Below are positions 33,246 through 55,843 of a stretch of DNA of 64,000 nucleotides, one piece after another (positions within the stretch are counted from its first letter, which is position 1; each line of letters starts with the position of its first letter). The notes under the pieces were generated by a model. The model ran no database searches. It was not told the DNA's origin and was given only the letters and a program-made list of their open reading frames with translations. The stretch covers positions 62,001 through 126,000 of the forward strand of contig NZ_SOHK01000014.1 of assembly GCF_004404055.1 (NCBI RefSeq), read 5' to 3'. Position numbers and translations under genes: made by a program. Origin of the DNA: Cryobacterium ruanii. GTDB taxonomy: Bacteria; Actinomycetota; Actinomycetes; Actinomycetales; Microbacteriaceae.

Positions 33246-34399
33246 TAATCGAGACCATCGAGCTGCGTCGCGTGCACATGCCGCTGGTGCAGCCGTTTCG
33301 TACTTCGTTCGGTACCTCTACCGAGCGGGAAGTCACCGTGGTGCGTGTCCTCACAGCGGATGCTGAGGGCTGGGCCGAGTGCGCCGCCGACGCGCATCCG
33401 CTCTACAGTAGTGAATTTCTGGATGCGAGCGACCTGGTCATTCGTGACCACTTGGTGCCCCGATTGCAGGCACTCGGCGACCGACTCAGCGCCGAACTCG
33501 TGGTCACCGCGCTCGAGCCGGTCAAGGGTCACATGATGAGCAAGGCCGTGCTCGAAACGGCCATTCTCGACGCGCAGCTGCACACAACCGGCGTCTCGTT
33601 CGGCAGCCACCTCGGCGCGGTGCGCGACACCGTGCCAGCCGGGGTCTCGGTCGGCATCATGGACTCGATCCCGGAGCTGCTCGACGCCGTCGCCGGCTAT
33701 CTCGCCGAAGGCTACCTGCGCATCAAACTGAAAATTGAACCCGGCTGGGACCTGGAACCAGTGCGGGCCGTGCGCGAACGTTTCGGCTCCGACCTGCTGC
33801 TGCAGGTCGACGCCAACACCGCGTACACTCTCGCCGATGCCCGCCACCTCGCTCGGCTCGACCCCTTCGACCTGCTGCTGATGGAACAGCCGATGAAGGA
33901 AGACGACATGCTCGGCCACGCCAACCTGGCCAAGCTCATCACGACACCGATCTGCCTCGACGAGTCGATCAAATCCGCCCGCGACGCCGCGACGGCGATC
34001 GCTCTCGGCGCCTGCAGCATCATCAACGTCAAGCCGGCCAGGGTCGGCGGCTACCTCGAGGCCCGGCGCATCCACGACGTCGCGGCGGCCCACGGCGTGC
34101 CGGTGTGGTGCGGCGGTATGCTCGAAACCGGCATTGGCCGGGCCGCCAACGTGGCCCTTGCCGCGCTGCCCAACTTCGTACTGCCGGGCGACACCTCGGC
34201 CTCCAACCGGTACTTCGCGCAGGACCTCACCGCACCGTTCGAGCTCGAGAACGGCCACCTGCGCGTACCAACCGGCCCCGGTATCGGCGTAAAGGTGCTG
34301 CCCGACGTGTTGGCGAGCGTTACCGCCAGCACCGACCGCATCCGTTTCAAGCCCGCCCGGGCCTACTCTGGAAGCAACGAGACCCTGGAGGAACAATGA
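33242..34399 (+). CDS. Enolase-superfamily o-succinylbenzoate synthase / N-succinylamino acid racemase
   Basis: A 385-aa muconate-lactonizing subgroup enzyme. Catalytic residues: KxK motif in [12 protein letters not shown], metal ligands in [19 protein letters not shown] and [11 protein letters not shown], and the acid/base Lys in [11 protein letters not shown]. Enzymes of this type make o-succinylbenzoate for menaquinone or racemise N-succinylamino acids. The neighbouring GNAT acyltransferase and the absence of other men genes here favour the racemase role, but both are possible. GAGGAACA-type spacing and four-base overlaps tie it to both neighbours. Confidence 0.85.
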
Positions 34400-34863
34400 C
34401 CGTGTCGACCGCCGATTTGTACGACGAGCGTGGCGACGAGCTGCAATCCGTACCCTTGCAGTTTCAGACGATCGGTGGGCGAACCCGGTTCAGCGGCCCG
34501 ATCCGCACGGTCACCTGCTTCGAAGACAACGCCCTACTCAAGTGGATCCTGTCCACGCCCGGTGACGGCGCCGTACTCGTCGTCGATGGCGGCGGCTCGC
34601 TCAACTCGGCGCTGATGGGTGACATGATCGCCGACCTCGCCGTCGTGAACGGATGGTCCGGTGCGATCATCAATGGTGCCGTGCGCGACCGGGTCGCCAT
34701 CGGTGCCCTCCACCTCGGGGTGAAAGCCCTCGGCAGCAATCCACGCAAGAGTTCCAAGACCGGTTCAGGGGTAGCGGATGCCGTCGTCGAGTTCGCCGGC
34801 GTCGTCTTCACTCCCGGTCGCACCGTCTACTGCGACGAAGACGGAATTCTCGTCGAACGCTGA
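34396..34863 (+). CDS. RraA-family protein (HMG aldolase / RNase E regulator-like)
   Basis: A 155-aa RraA-like protein. The hallmark [19 protein letters not shown] and, about twenty residues on, GAVRDRVAI give the G-x20-R-D arrangement shared by RNase E inhibitors and 4-hydroxy-4-methyl-2-oxoglutarate/oxaloacetate aldolases. Arg and Asp of that motif are the aldolase metal/substrate residues and are present. The ATG overlaps the enolase stop (ATGA 34396-34399), so it is the third gene of this operon. Actual activity cannot be decided. A perfect hairpin follows. Confidence 0.85.
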
Positions 34864-34911: not shown

Positions 34912-35511
34912 CTACTGCTGAACGTCGTCGATGCTCACGACGACGAAGTTGGCGTCGAGGTCGACGTCGCGGTCGCTGCCGTCGTCGAGGGTGACCTCAA
35001 CCTCGTAGAGGTGATCCCAGTCGTCGTCCCGATCGAAGTCGGTGACGCGACCGCTGCCGACCGCGGAGAGGGCTGCGGCTTCGGCACTGGCACGCTCACT
35101 CGCGGCCTGGTCGGTGGCGCTCGTGTCGGCCGTAGCGCTCGCAGTCGAGCTCGGTGCCGCTGAGCTGTCGTCTGATGAGCTGTTGTTTGACAAGTTGCTG
35201 CTGTCGTCGTTGTCGTAGTCGCCGACCCAGACCACGTCGAACGAATCGTTTAGCTCTACATCAACCGCGGTGCCGTCGTCGAGGCGCACCTCGAGGTCGT
35301 AGGCGCTTCCGCCGTCGTCGTTGCGGTTGGCGCTCGTCACCGTGCCCGGGCCCACTTCGGCCAGGGCGGCGTTGCTCGCGCGGTCGAGGGTCTCGCCGGT
35401 GAGCGGGCCGTCGTTGTCACCCATGTCGCTGACGGCCAGGGCAACGCCCGCGCCGCCCAGCGCGACTGCGACGCCTACAGCGGTCGCGATGAGTATGTTC
35501 TTCTTGTTCAT
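34912..35511 (-). CDS. Exported protein with two PepSY-like domains
   Basis: A 199-aa protein with an N-terminal signal or anchor (KNILIATAVGVAVALGGAG) and two copies of a PepSY-like unit: LTGETLDRASNAALAEVGPG with YDLEVRLDDGT, and SERASAEAAALSAVGSG with LYEVEVTLDDGS. The units are separated by a Ser/Asn/Ala/Thr-rich linker (about residues 100-137). PepSY modules often act as peptidase inhibitors or sensors at the cell surface. It is acidic throughout. Function unknown. Confidence 0.8.
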   Translation of the reverse strand: MNKKNILIATAVGVAVALGGAGVALAVSDMGDNDGPLTGETLDRASNAALAEVGPGTVTSANRNDDGGSAYDLEVRLDDGTAVDVELNDSFDVVWVGDYDNDDSSNLSNNSSSDDSSAAPSSTASATADTSATDQAASERASAEAAALSAVGSGRVTDFDRDDDWDHLYEVEVTLDDGSDRDVDLDANFVVVSIDDVQQ

Positions 35512-35767: not shown

Positions 35768-36568
35768 GTGACTATCGAAGCTCCGATCATGCGACAGCGC
35801 TGCCCGGCGCAGTCGATCATAGAAGTGCTCCTGCTGGAGCAGCGTCTGGTGGCGCCCCGCAATCCACTGCAACGGCTGATGGGCCGTTCCCCACTCGGCA
35901 CCGACGGCGCGCGCTGCTTCGACGCTGCCCGCGCCGAAATCGCGGTGGGCCAGGCGCTGGCCGAACTGCCCAGCGAATGGATCGTCTTTCATTCCCTGCC
36001 GGTCGGCGACAGCGGCGCCGACGTTGACCACCTGGTGATCGGCCCCGGCGGCGTGTTCGCCCTCCACTCCGACCGGCAGGCGCGCAAAGCCGTGCAGGTC
36101 GCCGGGCGCAGCGTGCGGGTCGGTACCCGAAAAATTCCGTATATAAGGGAAGCTGAATACGAGGCCGTCAGTCTCACCACTCTTCTCTCCCAACGCATGC
36201 CGCGCGCCGCGTCCGTGCACGGCGTCGTCGTGCTTGTGGATACCAAGAGCGTGATCGTGAAGGCGCAGCCGTCGCGGGTCAAAGTCATCGAGGCCGTCGA
36301 CCTGTGCGCGTGGCTCCAGGGACTGCCGGCGGTGCTGGCGCCACTTGGTCGGCTGGAAATTGCTGGGTTCGTCGAGAATCCCTTGCTCTGGCAGGCCCTC
36401 ACAGCACTGGAGCCGGCCGAGATCCTGCGACGCTTCGGCGAGCTCGAGGCCGAAGTAGCCAGCGCCCGGCGCACCCGTCTGTTGTGGTTGCCGCTGGGAA
36501 TCGTGCTCAGCACCCTCACTGCCCTGGAAATTCTGCTGACATTGCCCGGGCTCATGGGCGCGTTGTAG
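35768..36568 (+). CDS. NERD-domain protein 1, catalytic Lys replaced
   Basis: A 266-aa protein. After a conserved N-terminal stretch (QSIIEVLLLEQ), the nuclease-related NERD domain runs from about residue 55 with DVDHLVIGPGGVFAL. In the nuclease-like third strand, the usual (E/N)xK is replaced by HSDRQ, so the PD-(D/E)xK-type lysine is missing. A C-terminal hydrophobic helix (LLWLPLGIVLSTLTALEILL) suggests membrane anchoring. GTG 35768 with AGGAG (35759-35763) is preferred; TATATT nearby may be the -10. Paralogues lie at 36975, 38178 and 55028. Confidence 0.78.
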   Translation: MTIEAPIMRQRCPAQSIIEVLLLEQRLVAPRNPLQRLMGRSPLGTDGARCFDAARAEIAVGQALAELPSEWIVFHSLPVGDSGADVDHLVIGPGGVFALHSDRQARKAVQVAGRSVRVGTRKIPYIREAEYEAVSLTTLLSQRMPRAASVHGVVVLVDTKSVIVKAQPSRVKVIEAVDLCAWLQGLPAVLAPLGRLEIAGFVENPLLWQALTALEPAEILRRFGELEAEVASARRTRLLWLPLGIVLSTLTALEILLTLPGLMGAL

Positions 36569-36599
36569 CACGACTGCCGGGCCGCAGTCCAGTTCTGAA

Positions 36600-36760
36600 A
36601 AGTAGACCTCGCCCGGTGTGTCAGCGACTGACGCTGCGGACTCGGAGGGTGCGACGGGTGCGACGACCGGTTCGGCGCCCGGAGTCGCGAGCTCGTCGGG
36701 GCGGTCCGACAGGATGCGCGTCATCGCATCAGGCTCGGCCGCCGTCACCCACAGCGCCTA
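36600..36760 (-). pseudogene. Relic of the C-terminal part of an HNH nuclease like 61283-62539
   Basis: Read leftward from 36760, the frame gives ALWVTAAEPDAMTRILSDRP and DELATPGAEPVVAPVAPSE. This matches the GLWVTQPEHDAMTRILTACP and DEPATASAFAPEPVVVAP segments of the nuclease at 61283-62539. A stop codon replaces the residues before ALWVT and no HNH core is found upstream. After the Pro/Ala-rich part the similarity ends. It is therefore a decayed fragment of a second nuclease copy between two NERD genes. Confidence 0.6.
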
Positions 36761-36907
36761 CGACGCTCTAGCCGGTCTCGGGTGCACGCTCCTTCACGGT
36801 CATGAGACTCCTTCTGACTTCAGATCCACGACCCTGCGAATATACGTTGCCCCGCCCGGCCGCCGCGAAACCCGGGGCGGCGGGCCCGCATCCGCTTGGT
36901 GAAGAGT

Positions 36908-36922
36908 CCCCCATTCTGGGGG
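36908..36922. repeat. Short GC hairpin
   Basis: CCCCCATTCTGGGGG forms a 5-bp stem with a 5-base loop (extendable weakly) between the nuclease relic and the NERD 2 gene. It may be a leftover terminator or an attenuator. Confidence 0.35.
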
Positions 36923-36974
36923 TCTTGCAGTGAGGGTGGCACTGGCAAAATGTAGAACCCGGCGAGGAGCACTC

Positions 36975-37733
36975 ATGACTCACACTCTCTCCACGCGGCG
37001 GCGTCTGGTGACGCCCCCGGAACTGCCTGAATCGCCTTGCACCGGAGCGCGTCGATCATCGACTGGCCCAGCTTGGCCGCTCGGCCTTGCGTCGCGTCAG
37101 GCTGCCGCTACGCCGACCGACCTGGCGCTGGTCCGTGCGCGCAATGAGAGTGCGGTCGACGAAGTGCTCGCGACGCTACCGGACCACTGGGCCGCCTTCG
37201 CCTCACCGGCGTTGGGAGGTGACGGAGCGAGCGCGGTGCGCCTGCTCGTTGGGCCAGGTGGAGTATTTGCGCTGTACACGCAGCTCTACGACGGGCGGAT
37301 CGTCTGGGTGCACCGGCACACGTTGTTCGTCGTCGGGCAGCGCTCACCGAATCTGGTGCTTGCCGAATCCGGAGCGCGGCGCCTCACGCTTTTGCTGCGT
37401 GGGCGGCTGCCGCTGCGCAGTGCAGTTCAGCCGGCGCTGGTCGTGCTGGGCGCCCGCGCGCTGTGGGTCACCGGCCGTTCGGCGTCGGGAAAGATGGCGT
37501 CGGGCAGTACGGCTTCAGGACAGACCGGGGCAGGGCGGGCGACGCAGCGTCAAACGCCGCCCGTGCCCGTGCCCGTACTCAGCGCGGCGACGCTCAGCCA
37601 ATGGCTGGCCGCGCGTCCGCAGGTGTTGCGCCCGATCGAACGCATGGAATTGGCCGCTGTGATCGACAACCCGGTGACCTGGGGTATTCGCCCGTCGATA
37701 GTGCCGCGATCTGACACGGGCGATAGCCGCTAG
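36975..37733 (+). CDS. NERD-domain protein 2, degenerate
   Basis: A 252-aa protein recognised as NERD-like by VRLLVGPGGVFALYTQ and the preceding ESAVDEVLATLPDHWAAFA. The metal-binding Asp of the usual (V/I)DHLV is lost (it reads AVRLLV) and the lysine position is Gln. The C-terminal part has a low-complexity Ser/Gly/Ala/Thr insertion (about 175-195), then a WLAARPQVLRPIERMELAAV segment shared with the paralogues. There is no C-terminal membrane helix. GAGGAG precedes the ATG. Likely a diverged, catalytically inactive paralogue. Confidence 0.65.
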   Translation: MTHTLSTRRRLVTPPELPESPCTGARRSSTGPAWPLGLASRQAAATPTDLALVRARNESAVDEVLATLPDHWAAFASPALGGDGASAVRLLVGPGGVFALYTQLYDGRIVWVHRHTLFVVGQRSPNLVLAESGARRLTLLLRGRLPLRSAVQPALVVLGARALWVTGRSASGKMASGSTASGQTGAGRATQRQTPPVPVPVLSAATLSQWLAARPQVLRPIERMELAAVIDNPVTWGIRPSIVPRSDTGDSR

Positions 37734-37951
37734 CGTTTGGCGGGCCCGTGGCCCTTGGCCGAGAGCAGGCGCGCGCGCACCGAGAACGCGCCGCCGATCA
37801 CGAGCGAGACCACGGCCGCCGGAAGGATCACGTCGACGAACTGGTTGCCCGAGAGCAGATTGGCCAGCAGCAGCAGAACGGCCAGGCCGCTGAATCCGAG
37901 TCCCGTGATCGCGCAAACGTTGAAAGTCAGGTGCTTCACGAGCAGATCCAA
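37730..37951 (-). CDS. Small two-helix membrane protein
   Basis: A 73-aa protein with two hydrophobic helices (FSGLAVLLLLANLLSG and VDVILPAAVVSLVIGGAF) and a basic C-terminus. No family recognised. The start is a TTG at 37951 or a GTG at 37939. Its stop overlaps the end of NERD 2 by four bases, tail to tail. Its GC-rich codon use agrees with its neighbours. Confidence 0.5.
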   Translation of the reverse strand: MDLLVKHLTFNVCAITGLGFSGLAVLLLLANLLSGNQFVDVILPAAVVSLVIGGAFSVRARLLSAKGHGPAKR

Positions 37952-38177
37952 TCGGTGGGTTGGCTTTCAGGCTAGCCGACGTTGCCCTGCTTAGTGGGGG
38001 AGGCCGCCTTCGGGGTCGCACCCCTAGAGTGACAGCGGACGCTCCGCGCCAGCCTCGCACGTCGCTCCACACGCGAGTGAGAATTACTTAGGAATTGCTA
38101 ACCAACGCTGCGACGCTGCCGATTGTCTGTACGGAAACGGCGGATGTCGGTGCCACGACAATACGGGGTGCGAACCC

Positions 38178-39071
38178 GTGGTGAGGCAAGTGAACGTGGC
38201 TATAACAATTCTCGGCGCTGGAGTACCAGCTTGTGACAGCGAGCCTGCACGCTTGTTGGCGTCGGTCGTACCCACCGCAACCGGTCGATTTGCGGGCCAG
38301 TCCGTCGTCGAGGAACTGCTCCGCCAACATGGCGATCGGCCACCGCGATCCCGACTCGCCCGCACCCTGGGCGCCTCGCCGCTCGATGTGAACGAGCTGA
38401 GCTGGTTGCGCGCCGCGCAGGCAGAAATGATTGTCGGGGACATCCTCGGACGGCTGCCCGAGGGCTACAGCGTCTATCATTCCCTGCCCATTCGCAATAC
38501 GGCCTTCTGGGTCGATCACCTCGTCGTCGGCCCCGGTGGAATCTTCTCGATCAACTCGAAGACCCACTGGGACCGCGATTTGACCGGGTCGATGCGTTCG
38601 ATTCCCATCGGCGAACACGCCATGCCCTACCTGCGCGATGCCCAGTTCGAATCGGCCCAGATCACCGCGCTGCTGGCCGCAGTGATGCCGGGGACGACCG
38701 TGGTGCAACCCGTGATCGTGCTGGTCAACCCGCACAAGATTCTGCTCGCCCGCAAACCCGATGCCGTGACGGTCATCGACTCGCCACGCCTGCGCCGGTG
38801 GCTCGTCGGACGCACGCAGGTGTTCAGCGCTGAGCAGCAGGCCGCGCTCACCGCCCTCATCGACGACCCGACAACCTGGCTGGAGGCCGGCCAGCCGCTC
38901 GCGCCGGCGCACCTGCACGCCCGGTTCACCGCGCTCGAACAGCAGGTCGCGGCTGCCCGCACCCGGCGCACGACGTTCACGGTTCTCGCCGCCGCGGCCG
39001 CCACGACCCTGTTCGCTCTCGCGACCTCGCCCCTCATCGTCACCGCCGTCGAGTACCTCGCGGCCCGCTGA
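38178..39071 (+). CDS. NERD-domain protein 3
   Basis: A 297-aa protein with QSVVEELLRQHGDRPPRS, then ELSWLRAAQAEMIVGDILG and the NERD core WVDHLVVGPGGIFSINSK, with Asp and Lys at the positions expected for the nuclease-like fold. The C-terminus has one or two hydrophobic helices (TVLAAAAATTLFALA). Its overall plan equals NERD 1 and NERD 4. The start is uncertain (GTG 38178 or GTG 38190); the conserved part begins near residue 40. NERD domains are predicted nucleases from fold similarity; the biological role here is unknown. Confidence 0.78.
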   Translation: MVRQVNVAITILGAGVPACDSEPARLLASVVPTATGRFAGQSVVEELLRQHGDRPPRSRLARTLGASPLDVNELSWLRAAQAEMIVGDILGRLPEGYSVYHSLPIRNTAFWVDHLVVGPGGIFSINSKTHWDRDLTGSMRSIPIGEHAMPYLRDAQFESAQITALLAAVMPGTTVVQPVIVLVNPHKILLARKPDAVTVIDSPRLRRWLVGRTQVFSAEQQAALTALIDDPTTWLEAGQPLAPAHLHARFTALEQQVAAARTRRTTFTVLAAAAATTLFALATSPLIVTAVEYLAAR

Positions 39072-39080
39072 GCCGCAGAG

Positions 39081-39743
39081 TCAGGCGAGGCGCTCGAGAG
39101 TCGTGCCCTCCCGCATCCGCTCGACGCGTACGACGTGGTCGCGCAGGTCGCGTACCCCGCGAGGGATAGCGAGTTCGGCGACATCCTGCCCCTTCGTCAC
39201 GGCGTGTGACCGGGTGGGATGCCGGTAGTCCTCGATTGACGCGAAGGTACCCCGCCCGCGCGGTTCCTTGCTGTGCCGTTGCGCGAACCCGGAGTTGATC
39301 GCGCTCAGCTCGATCTCGTCTTCGTGGGCGGCGACCAGGCTCCTGGTATTCAGGGTGATCACGGTGTGGGCATCGTCGCGATAGGAGCGGGCGTTTAGCA
39401 GGTCGCGCAGCAACCGGGGCTGCAGGTGAAAGAAGACGCGGTCGTTGAGGGCCGCGTACCACTCCGTGAGGGTCATGTCTTCGAGGGCGTCCTCGAGCGA
39501 CGCCTCATGGATGGCCTTTTGATGACGGATGACCGCGGTTCCGAATTCCGCATGCTCCAGCACGCGTGACTCACCGCGCCGCTTGCCGAGAATGATGGCC
39601 TGCGGGGCTCCCTGCCTGACACCCCAGCGGGTCACGAGCGCGGTCGGACTGAGCAGCCCGTGTCGCTCGATGGCGGGCCAGCTTTGGTCGGCGGCCACGT
39701 GGTAGAGCTCGGGGTAAAGACGAATCAGATCGCGGGACAACAC
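39081..39743 (-). CDS. DUF7002-like protein of unknown function
   Basis: A 220-aa protein if started at GTG 39743; the same frame is open to ATG 39806, but that stretch overlaps a gene relic. It begins LSRDLIRLYPELYHVAAD with SWPAIERHGLLSPTALV soon after, a pattern shared by a small conserved bacterial family and reminiscent of ADP-ribosyltransferase/RNA 2'-phosphotransferase entry motifs (LYH, then a GLL turn). Later it has NDRVFFHLQPRLLRDLL and TVITLNTRSLV. The enzymatic comparison is only inference. It converges with NERD 3 with a 9-bp spacer. Confidence 0.65.
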   Translation of the reverse strand: MLSRDLIRLYPELYHVAADQSWPAIERHGLLSPTALVTRWGVRQGAPQAIILGKRRGESRVLEHAEFGTAVIRHQKAIHEASLEDALEDMTLTEWYAALNDRVFFHLQPRLLRDLLNARSYRDDAHTVITLNTRSLVAAHEDEIELSAINSGFAQRHSKEPRGRGTFASIEDYRHPTRSHAVTKGQDVAELAIPRGVRDLRDHVVRVERMREGTTLERLA

Positions 39744-39789
39744 GGTTCGAGCGTACTCGCCGCCGGCGCGGCGCCGAGCCACGCACAAC

Positions 39790-39996
39790 TCACTGGACAA
39801 AATCACTCTGGTCGAGTGTCGCGAGCACCGTGCGGCAGCTCGTTGACGCCCGCGGCGCCATATTCACCAGGGCGATCTGGCTCAGTGAGATCGTCACCCG
39901 CGTGCACGCGCCGCTCCGATTTCACGGTGACGTGCGCTCGAAAGTTCTGCCCCGCAAAGGCCGCTTCGTTCAAAGGGGCGCGAACTGCGGCTCCCA
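39790..39996 (-). pseudogene. Frameshifted C-terminal relic of a 2'-5' RNA ligase-like protein
   Basis: Reading leftward, LNEAAFAGQNFRAHVTVKSE and RRVHAGDD match the second HxT half of the 2'-5' RNA ligase/phosphoesterase family. The rest of the family C-terminus (LSQIALVNMAPRAS, CRTVLATLDQ, stop at 39790-39792) is present in the next frame, shifted near 39895. The N-terminal half is missing: upstream is the transketolase relic. Low but specific similarity. Confidence 0.5.
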
Positions 39997-55027: not shown

Positions 55028-55843
55028 ATGACAACACAGGCACCGGGTATGAGCGACCGGATCGCGGCCCAATCGGTCATCGAAGAGTTGTTCCGCCAGC
55101 AGCAGGACGTGCCACCACGCTCTGGCTTCGCCCGATTTTGGGGATACTCTCCGCTGGCAGCGGAGAGCGTCGCCTGGTACCGCGGCGCCCAGGGCGAGAT
55201 CGAGGTCGGCAGAATTCTCAACCGCCTTCCGTCCGAGTGGCGAGTCTTCCACGCCCTGCCGATCGGCAAAGCCGGCGCTGACATCGATCACCTCGTGCTC
55301 GGCCCGGGCGGCATCTTCACCATCAACACCAAGCACCACCGCGGCAAAAAGATCTGGGTCGCCGAGCGGACGATTATGGTCAGTGGACAGAAACAGCCCT
55401 ACCTTCGCAACTCCCAATTCGAAGCCATCCGCGTCACCAAAATGCTTCAAAAACGGATGCCGCAGCTCCCGGCAGCGCAGGCAGTAATCGCGTTGGTCGG
55501 CCCTACGCAGGTCACGATCAAGAAGAGACCCGACACCGTCACTGTTCTGGATGCGGTCAGTTTGCGCCGGTGGCTTCTTAAACAGCCAGCCTCTCTCGTC
55601 GAAGCCGATCTGGTCGAGCTTGCAGCGATAGTTGACGCGCCAGCGACCTGGGCTGCACTCACATCGCTACCGAATCTGAGTTTGATGGCGAAATTCGCTG
55701 TGATCGACCGCGATGTAAAAACAGCGCGCGTGCGGAGAGTCTCGTGGACCCTGGTCAGTTTCGCGACAGTTGCGACACTCGGGGTGTTCGTGGGCCTGCC
55801 TGTCTATAACAAGTTTGTCTTGGGAATCATCGGCGCTCTTTGA
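55028..55843 (+). CDS. NERD-domain protein 4, canonical
   Basis: A 271-aa protein and the best preserved of four NERD paralogues: QSVIEELFRQQQDVPPRS, AWYRGAQGEIEVGRILNRLP and the core ADIDHLVLGPGGIFTINTK with an HHRGKKIWV follow-up, keeping the Asp and Lys of the nuclease-like site. A C-terminal helix (WTLVSFATVATLGVFVGLPV) predicts membrane attachment. GGGGGA precedes ATG 55028. It is isolated from the other three by 16 kb and is surrounded by relics. Confidence 0.85.
   Translation: MTTQAPGMSDRIAAQSVIEELFRQQQDVPPRSGFARFWGYSPLAAESVAWYRGAQGEIEVGRILNRLPSEWRVFHALPIGKAGADIDHLVLGPGGIFTINTKHHRGKKIWVAERTIMVSGQKQPYLRNSQFEAIRVTKMLQKRMPQLPAAQAVIALVGPTQVTIKKRPDTVTVLDAVSLRRWLLKQPASLVEADLVELAAIVDAPATWAALTSLPNLSLMAKFAVIDRDVKTARVRRVSWTLVSFATVATLGVFVGLPVYNKFVLGIIGAL

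Follow-up and report, generated by a model that had tools for sequence, protein, structure and literature searches.

Why should a cold-living bacterium retain three adjacent genes of a nuclease fold in which the catalytic site has been lost to different degrees, together with a fourth, complete-looking copy further along the chromosome? The question is raised by a 64,000-nucleotide stretch of the Cryobacterium ruanii contig NZ_SOHK01000014.1, the whole of which is referred to here as the window, and by its four NERD-fold genes, N1 to N4. The reading favoured in this analysis, at a probability of roughly 0.55, is that N1, N2 and N3 are pseudonucleases at the inner membrane which are kept for binding, and that N4 is separate from them and may still cut. 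The four genes are listed below, with lengths in amino acids (aa) and with residues numbered, as throughout the text, according to N4:

35768..36568, + strand: N1, NERD protein of 266 aa with a C-terminal hydrophobic helix; E57, D85, D87 and E132 kept, His at position 100 and Asp at position 102
36975..37733, + strand: N2, NERD-fold protein of 252 aa without a membrane helix; both Asp, the Lys and Glu132 gone
38196..39071, + strand: N3, NERD protein of 291 aa from its likely start, with a C-terminal hydrophobic helix; Asp and Lys kept, Trp at position 85
55028..55843, + strand: N4, NERD protein of 271 aa with a C-terminal hydrophobic helix; complete DxD...NxK signature
First bases of the N4 site codons: E57 55196, D85 55280, D87 55286, N100 55325, K102 55331, E132 55421

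The upstream sequence places the start codons of N1 and N2 at GTG 35768 and ATG 36975, and for N3 a two-base gap found in three orthologues between the earlier-assumed start and GTG 38196 makes the latter codon the most likely start. Genes or remnants on the opposite strand separate N1 from N2 and N2 from N3, and the array therefore does not resemble a single operon. N4 lies about 16 kb past N1–N3, outside the array.

Three neighbouring NERD-fold genes and a fourth at 55 kb had been proposed in an initial annotation made from the sequence, and this proposal is borne out by Pfam NERD (PF08378) matches above the curated cut-off of 22.1 bits for N1 (31 bits), N3 (30.1 bits) and N4 (53.5 bits). 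N2 has no Pfam match, and a profile built from N2 orthologues alone retrieved N1 (1.6e-28), N4 (1.4e-27) and N3 (2.9e-14) from its own genome. Pairwise identities among the four proteins are 27–40%, 18 to 86 standard deviations over shuffles, and by these alignments N2 is homologous to N1, N3 and N4. An N-terminal QSxxEELxRQ segment, or its remnants, had been described in all four, but in N2 no recognisable segment is left. Pfam NERD matches occur in 57/57 genus and 180/199 family genomes, counts which overstate NERD proper because the model also picks up short proteins (for example L002) that we take to be YraN-like.

The PD-(D/E)xK core has the order helix-strand-strand-strand-helix-strand, and its second and third strands carry the active site. 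This layout is found in the AlphaFold2 (AF2) model of N4 (predicted local distance difference test, pLDDT, 93.9; predicted template modelling score, pTM, 0.88), which comprises a helix at 45–64, strands at 72–78, 85–92 and 95–103, a helix at 125–143 and a strand at 151–157. D85 and D87 lie on strand 85–92, N100 and K102 on strand 95–103 and E57 in the first helix, so that the residues named earlier as catalytic occupy the PD-(D/E)xK site position of the model. Structural neighbours of N4 have middling Z scores (Upx 8.5, VC1899 8.1, Cdn1 7.7, Can2 7.3) and also include McrC, NucC and Hjc, with a best Foldseek E of 1.6e-3; among solved structures searched by sequence the best match had an E of 0.086. 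NERD is assigned to the PD-(D/E)xK clan in PMC12839542. The AF2 model of N2, of medium quality (pLDDT 71), has its main strands and helices in the order of N4, and its structural matches are led by SLFN12 at Z 7.6 and by Hjc at Z 6.6, followed by unrelated-looking Mediator and acetyl-CoA carboxylase matches.

Conservation, age and selection of the array

The array proved to be conserved at the level of a clade. Among 57 Cryobacterium genomes, own genome included, N2 (orthologue threshold, E below 1e-100) and N3 occur in 17, every genome with N2 also holding N3, and N1 occurs in 13 of these 17, with one copy frameshifted (G033). N1 was not found in the stretches from RraA to the array in G019, G034, G036 and G045. 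The array is flanked by RraA and PepSY genes on one side and by a DUF7002 gene on the other:

34396..34863, + strand: RraA-like protein, conserved upstream border
34912..35511, - strand: PepSY protein, array border on the N1 side
39081..39806, - strand: DUF7002 protein, array border (Pfam 188.6 bits; matches in 31/57 genus genomes)

Genomes with an RraA at least 91% identical to that of the window are the same 17 (next 83%), as are those with a DUF7002 protein at least 88% identical (next 78%), and the definition of the clade thus does not rest on N2 alone. In G036 the DUF7002 gene is on another contig, near the contig end, and its adjacency to the array is not visible there. Outside the clade, pairs of NERD genes occur downstream of RraA at L068–L070, L074 and L077–L080, and the first gene of L068 and L069 has the SVIEVLLLE start of N1 with the Lys still present.

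A genus tree of 112 NERD proteins, from which the columns in the vicinity of the catalytic Asp and Lys were removed and L005 was left out, recovered N1 (13 proteins, stem 0.7), N2 (17 proteins, stem 1.04; 22 with outgroup N2-like proteins) and N3 (17 proteins, stem 1.15) each as one group, with support of 98–100 in the Shimodaira–Hasegawa-like approximate likelihood ratio test (SH-aLRT). The order among the three groups is unsure because this is a quick tree with a long-branch warning. The topology indicates that they are old paralogues and no recent tandem copies, and the long separate stems do not support a recent local expansion. The fewest changes on the tree were eight for the Lys and ten for the full site (acid at 85, D87 and K102). 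In the array genes the site states are of old date and have come close to fixation.

Purifying selection acts on each of the four genes. Median pairwise Nei-Gojobori estimates of the ratio of nonsynonymous to synonymous substitution rates (dN/dS) were 0.153 for N1 (12 sequences, leaving out the frameshifted N1 of L062), 0.304 for N2 (17), 0.177 for N3 (17) and 0.240 for N4 (9), with a median dS of 0.56–0.59 for N2 and N3. Frames without internal stops were found for N2 and N3 in 17/17 clade genomes and for N1 in 12/17, the nine N4 sequences are likewise free of them, and the N2 segment LR.IERMELAAVID.P.TWG is nearly invariant out to the outgroup N2-like proteins.

N4 has a different history, being present in only 9/17 clade genomes, in one of which (G036) it has Asp85 replaced by Ala and a short N-terminus. 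The eight genomes lacking a whole N4 were searched with an NxK-family profile, and matches stronger than E 7e-8 were read individually. By this search N4 was not found in G011, G020, G028, G045 and G053, and pieces nearest to N4 (45–87% identical) remained in G006 and G033, without the site region, and in G019, without the N-terminal part. G045 also holds a fragment belonging to a different NERD type (91% identity with L006), and in G020 there is another NxK protein, L182, which looks complete and shows the full signature; the profile search found no full-signature NxK protein in the other seven, nor is there one among the fetched NERD genes of G036, which was outside that search. N4 is thus absent, broken or site-damaged in 9/17 genomes and N2 and N3 in none absent or broken, a pattern which speaks against N2 and N3 as subunits of N4 and favours a non-cutting function, unless N3 itself cuts.

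The DxD...NxK site and its loss in the array genes

The site was compared across a wide set of NERD proteins, an uneven sample made up of the top-scoring matches per search at genus, family and phylum level. Both the catalytic Asp and the Lys were present in 68 of the 71 aligned proteins, the three dropped being two fragments and a DnaJ-NERD protein that lacks the Lys. The residue two positions before the Lys was Asp or Glu in 46 of the 68 and another residue in 22 (21 Asn, 1 Thr). The acid-x-Lys on the third core strand that characterises the 46 is found in none of the four proteins, which have NxK (N4 and N3), HxD (N1) and YxQ (N2) at this place. Asp85 was present in 22/22 proteins of the non-(D/E)xK type versus 1/46 of the (D/E)xK type, and Glu132 in 21/22 versus 5/46. 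The NxK type forms one clade (38 proteins including Cryobacterium representatives, support 96), which requires a single switch. A Fisher test on the counts was set aside because the NxK proteins form this one clade. N1, N3 and N4 share their Pfam family with the (D/E)xK-type proteins but sit within this DxD...NxK clade. On the evidence of these alignments N4 is a member of an actinobacterial NERD subfamily in which Asn stands where (D/E)xK has its acid, and in which a further Asp precedes the catalytic Asp by two residues.

A comparable arrangement is described in PMC6344858 for the restriction endonuclease PfoI, the site of which is E...ExD...K. In motif layout, which is all that was compared, N4 has the same acid-x-Asp...Lys without an acid before the Lys (D85-x-D87...N100-x-K102), the acid being placed two positions ahead of the catalytic Asp and not, as in (D/E)xK, ahead of the Lys.

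The residues named in the initial annotation were all recovered (DIDH and INTK in N4, WVDH and INSK in N3, VDH and HSDRQ in N1, neither motif in N2), and across the clade their states are close to uniform. In the nine N4 orthologues D85 is kept in 8/9 and D87, N100, K102 and E132 in 9/9. N3 has Trp85, D87 and E132 in 17/17 and the Lys in 15/17, with Arg in its place in G014 and G036, while N1 has D85, D87, His100 and E132 in 13/13 and Lys102 in none. Asp85, Asp87, Lys102 and Glu132 are absent from N2 in 17/17, with Asp at position 132 in two. An acid at 85, D87 and K102 occur jointly in 0/47 proteins of the clade array, in 16/33 from other array-like loci and in 28/32 elsewhere, the last being mostly best Pfam matches and biased to whole sites.

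The order of graded site loss is therefore as had been claimed, with N3 one step further down than supposed: it does keep the Asp and Lys, but by the subfamily signature its WxD falls short as well, which leaves N4 as the one protein with a whole-looking site. In the favoured reading N1 and N2 are clearly pseudonucleases and N3 is probably one.

Possible functions of the site-poor copies

Membrane helices were called by a simple hydrophobicity threshold together with helix prediction. A C-terminal helix is predicted in N3 (17/17), N4 (9/9) and N1 (11/13, the misses being one frameshifted gene and one just below the threshold) and in 0/22 proteins of the N2 lineage, in keeping with what had been noted for the window. 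By this helix N1 and N3 would be tail-anchored at the C terminus, their NERD domains facing the cytoplasm. N2 would be a soluble protein, for which N3 or a small membrane protein encoded between the two may serve as a docking site:

37730..37939, - strand: gene of a 69-aa protein that has two hydrophobic stretches; situated between N2 (convergent) and N3 (divergent)
37940..38195, unstranded: region upstream of both N3 and the 69-aa gene; conserved blocks, for example around CCAATCGGTGGG and GGCTAGCCGAC of the window (17-genome alignment)

The 69-aa gene is present in 17/17 clade genomes, its 16 relatives being 87–96% identical to that of the window, and with a dN/dS of 0.09 its product is the most constrained of the five measured. 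The protein is a small candidate partner. Two of its stretches exceed the hydrophobicity threshold, it has no Pfam match and a weak PHROG match (E 0.02), and its gene is too short for the size limit of the open-reading-frame list. Matches, weaker ones included, occur in 45/57 genus genomes, and in G025 a NERD gene is followed directly by a gene of this type in convergent orientation. The blocks in 37940–38195, in which some genomes vary by one base per block, possibly form a divergent promoter of the 69-aa gene and N3.

What selection keeps in N1–N3 would be the binding of nucleic acid or of a partner protein on the inner side of the cytoplasmic membrane, and not cutting. N4, with its complete PfoI-like permuted site (E57, D85-x-D87, K102), may still cut. 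The locus separates fold from cutting by a natural experiment, in that the site-poor copies are those which selection keeps and their full-site sister is often lost, and the kept job is therefore probably not the cutting of DNA. More tentatively, and with considerable doubt, N2, N3 and the 69-aa protein could form a non-cutting, membrane-bound nucleic-acid-handling module which arose from nucleases through repeated site loss in NERD arrays and which outlived its active parent type without regulating it; if so, it might for example act as a membrane tether for the nucleoid or for DNA entering the cell.

Several observations weigh against the pseudonuclease reading. N3 keeps Asp87 and Lys102 in 15/17 genomes and could still cut, and the importance of position 85 is argued by analogy from one enzyme, PfoI. 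An acid at 85 also occurs in 9/46 proteins of the (D/E)xK type (8 Glu, 1 Asp), so that there is no strict exchange between the two positions, and the association of D85 with N100 does not represent many independent events, because the NxK switch happened once and was then retained. N2 evolves fastest of the four, N1 is missing or broken in 5/17 clade genomes, the dN/dS values are medians of pairwise estimates and several of the N4 losses may go back to one ancestor. Homology, the fold predicted for N4, conservation, selection, site states and the pattern of gene loss rest on observation, and from these we infer the membrane topology, cutting by N4 and not by N1–N3, the binding role and the docking of N2.

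If N3 were still an active nuclease, N2 and N1 could be its non-cutting partners in a mixed complex, an account which is conceivable but rather unlikely. It would agree with the co-occurrence of N2 and N3 in 17/17 genomes, with the Asp87 and Lys102 of most N3 proteins and with pairs of full-site and site-lost NERD genes outside the clade (L068, L069, L078, L083, L084 and L086). However, other pairs are both full (L031, L077, L079 and L080) or both lost (L070), Trp occupies the subfamily's extra acid position in all 17 N3 proteins, and N2 is kept in G014 and G036 despite the change of the N3 Lys to Arg. That all four proteins are active through other residues, such as E132 or His100, appears improbable: permuted PD-(D/E)xK sites are known (PMC6344858) and E132 is kept throughout N1, N3 and N4 (13/13, 17/17 and 9/9), yet N2 lacks all four site residues in 17/17, two with Asp at 132, and N1 lacks the Lys in 13/13.

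The regulatory subunits suggested in the initial annotation fare badly if they are taken to be subunits of N4. With N4 about 16 kb away and present in 9/17 genomes such a role for N1–N3 has some room, but it becomes very improbable in view of the intact N2 and N3 in the eight genomes in which N4 is absent or broken and of the damaged N4 site in G036. Nor was a steady N4 gene neighbourhood seen within the short flanks (about 3 kb), the N4 neighbours in the window recurring, and then partly, in 2/20 loci (one of the 20, L104, without a NERD gene), and this neighbourhood was set aside as a functional clue. Drift of leftover duplicates towards pseudogenes, which the lost site residues and the missing or frameshifted N1 in 5/17 genomes might suggest, is scarcely credible beside 17 intact N2 and 17 intact N3 frames, dN/dS of 0.304 and 0.177 at the dS given above and the nearly unchanged N2 segment.

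Known NERD proteins and neighbouring genes

The favoured reading has a precedent in SmdA of Staphylococcus aureus, a membrane-anchored NERD protein required for cell shape and septum placement (PMC9040797). The domain is widespread, and according to the SmdA authors its role had gone unstudied in bacteria before their work in 2022 (PMC9040797). Like N1–N3, SmdA lacks several of those residues that NERD proteins conserve most strongly. It is attached to the membrane, as is predicted for N1 and N3; it differs, in a comparison by description, in having an N-terminal membrane helix and in being encoded by a monocistronic single gene (PMC9040797). The claim that a membrane-related role had not been described for NERD proteins therefore fails, SmdA being a membrane NERD protein with incomplete residues and a role in cell division. 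Among open-licence papers none named both Cryobacterium and NERD, no title or opening of an abstract listed dealt with NERD genes of Cryobacterium or with a permuted site in NERD proteins, and the listings did not show the clade-wide site-lost NERD array, the DxD...NxK signature or the 69-aa gene (the latter not searched by name). The signature also names a testable site, D85-x-D87...K102, for this actinobacterial subfamily.

NERD modules are described in defence systems, in PglW of type 2 BREX (PMC12839542) and in Mokosh type I (PMC10952713), with which N1–N4 share the domain. However, PADLOC gave no match for seven proteins (N1–N4, DUF7002, PepSY and the protein at 53.7 kb) and PHROG none for N1–N4 and DUF7002, and a defence or phage family identity was rejected on these results.

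A further nuclease gene adjoins N2:

36653..36769, - strand: remnant of an HNH nuclease of secreted type (GmrSD_C and Excalibur), a longer gene beside N2 in relatives

The remnant is 66.7% identical over 39 aa to a longer relative, the domains being assigned from Pfam matches of the relative in L035. The HNH gene adjoins N2 in 11/17 clade genomes (in two pieces in L061) and also in L067 and L068. As an obligatory partner of N2 it was rejected, because N2 is kept in the other six genomes, in which the HNH gene was not found or is a remnant only.

Between N2 and the 69-aa gene, eight relatives carry an HbpS-like gene (L057:5208-5693), which was not found in the window. A separate type of NERD locus (L083–L086) includes a gene with Met or Thr replacing the Lys, and a complete NERD gene lies near the Lys-lost one in L083, L084 and L086. 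Elsewhere in the genome of the window, on contig C20, L005:1285-2271 (- strand) encodes a fusion of a DnaJ domain with a weakly NERD-like domain that lacks the Lys, and two matches of the NxK profile search (L193 and L194, about 1e-9) are DnaJ-NERD proteins of the same kind.

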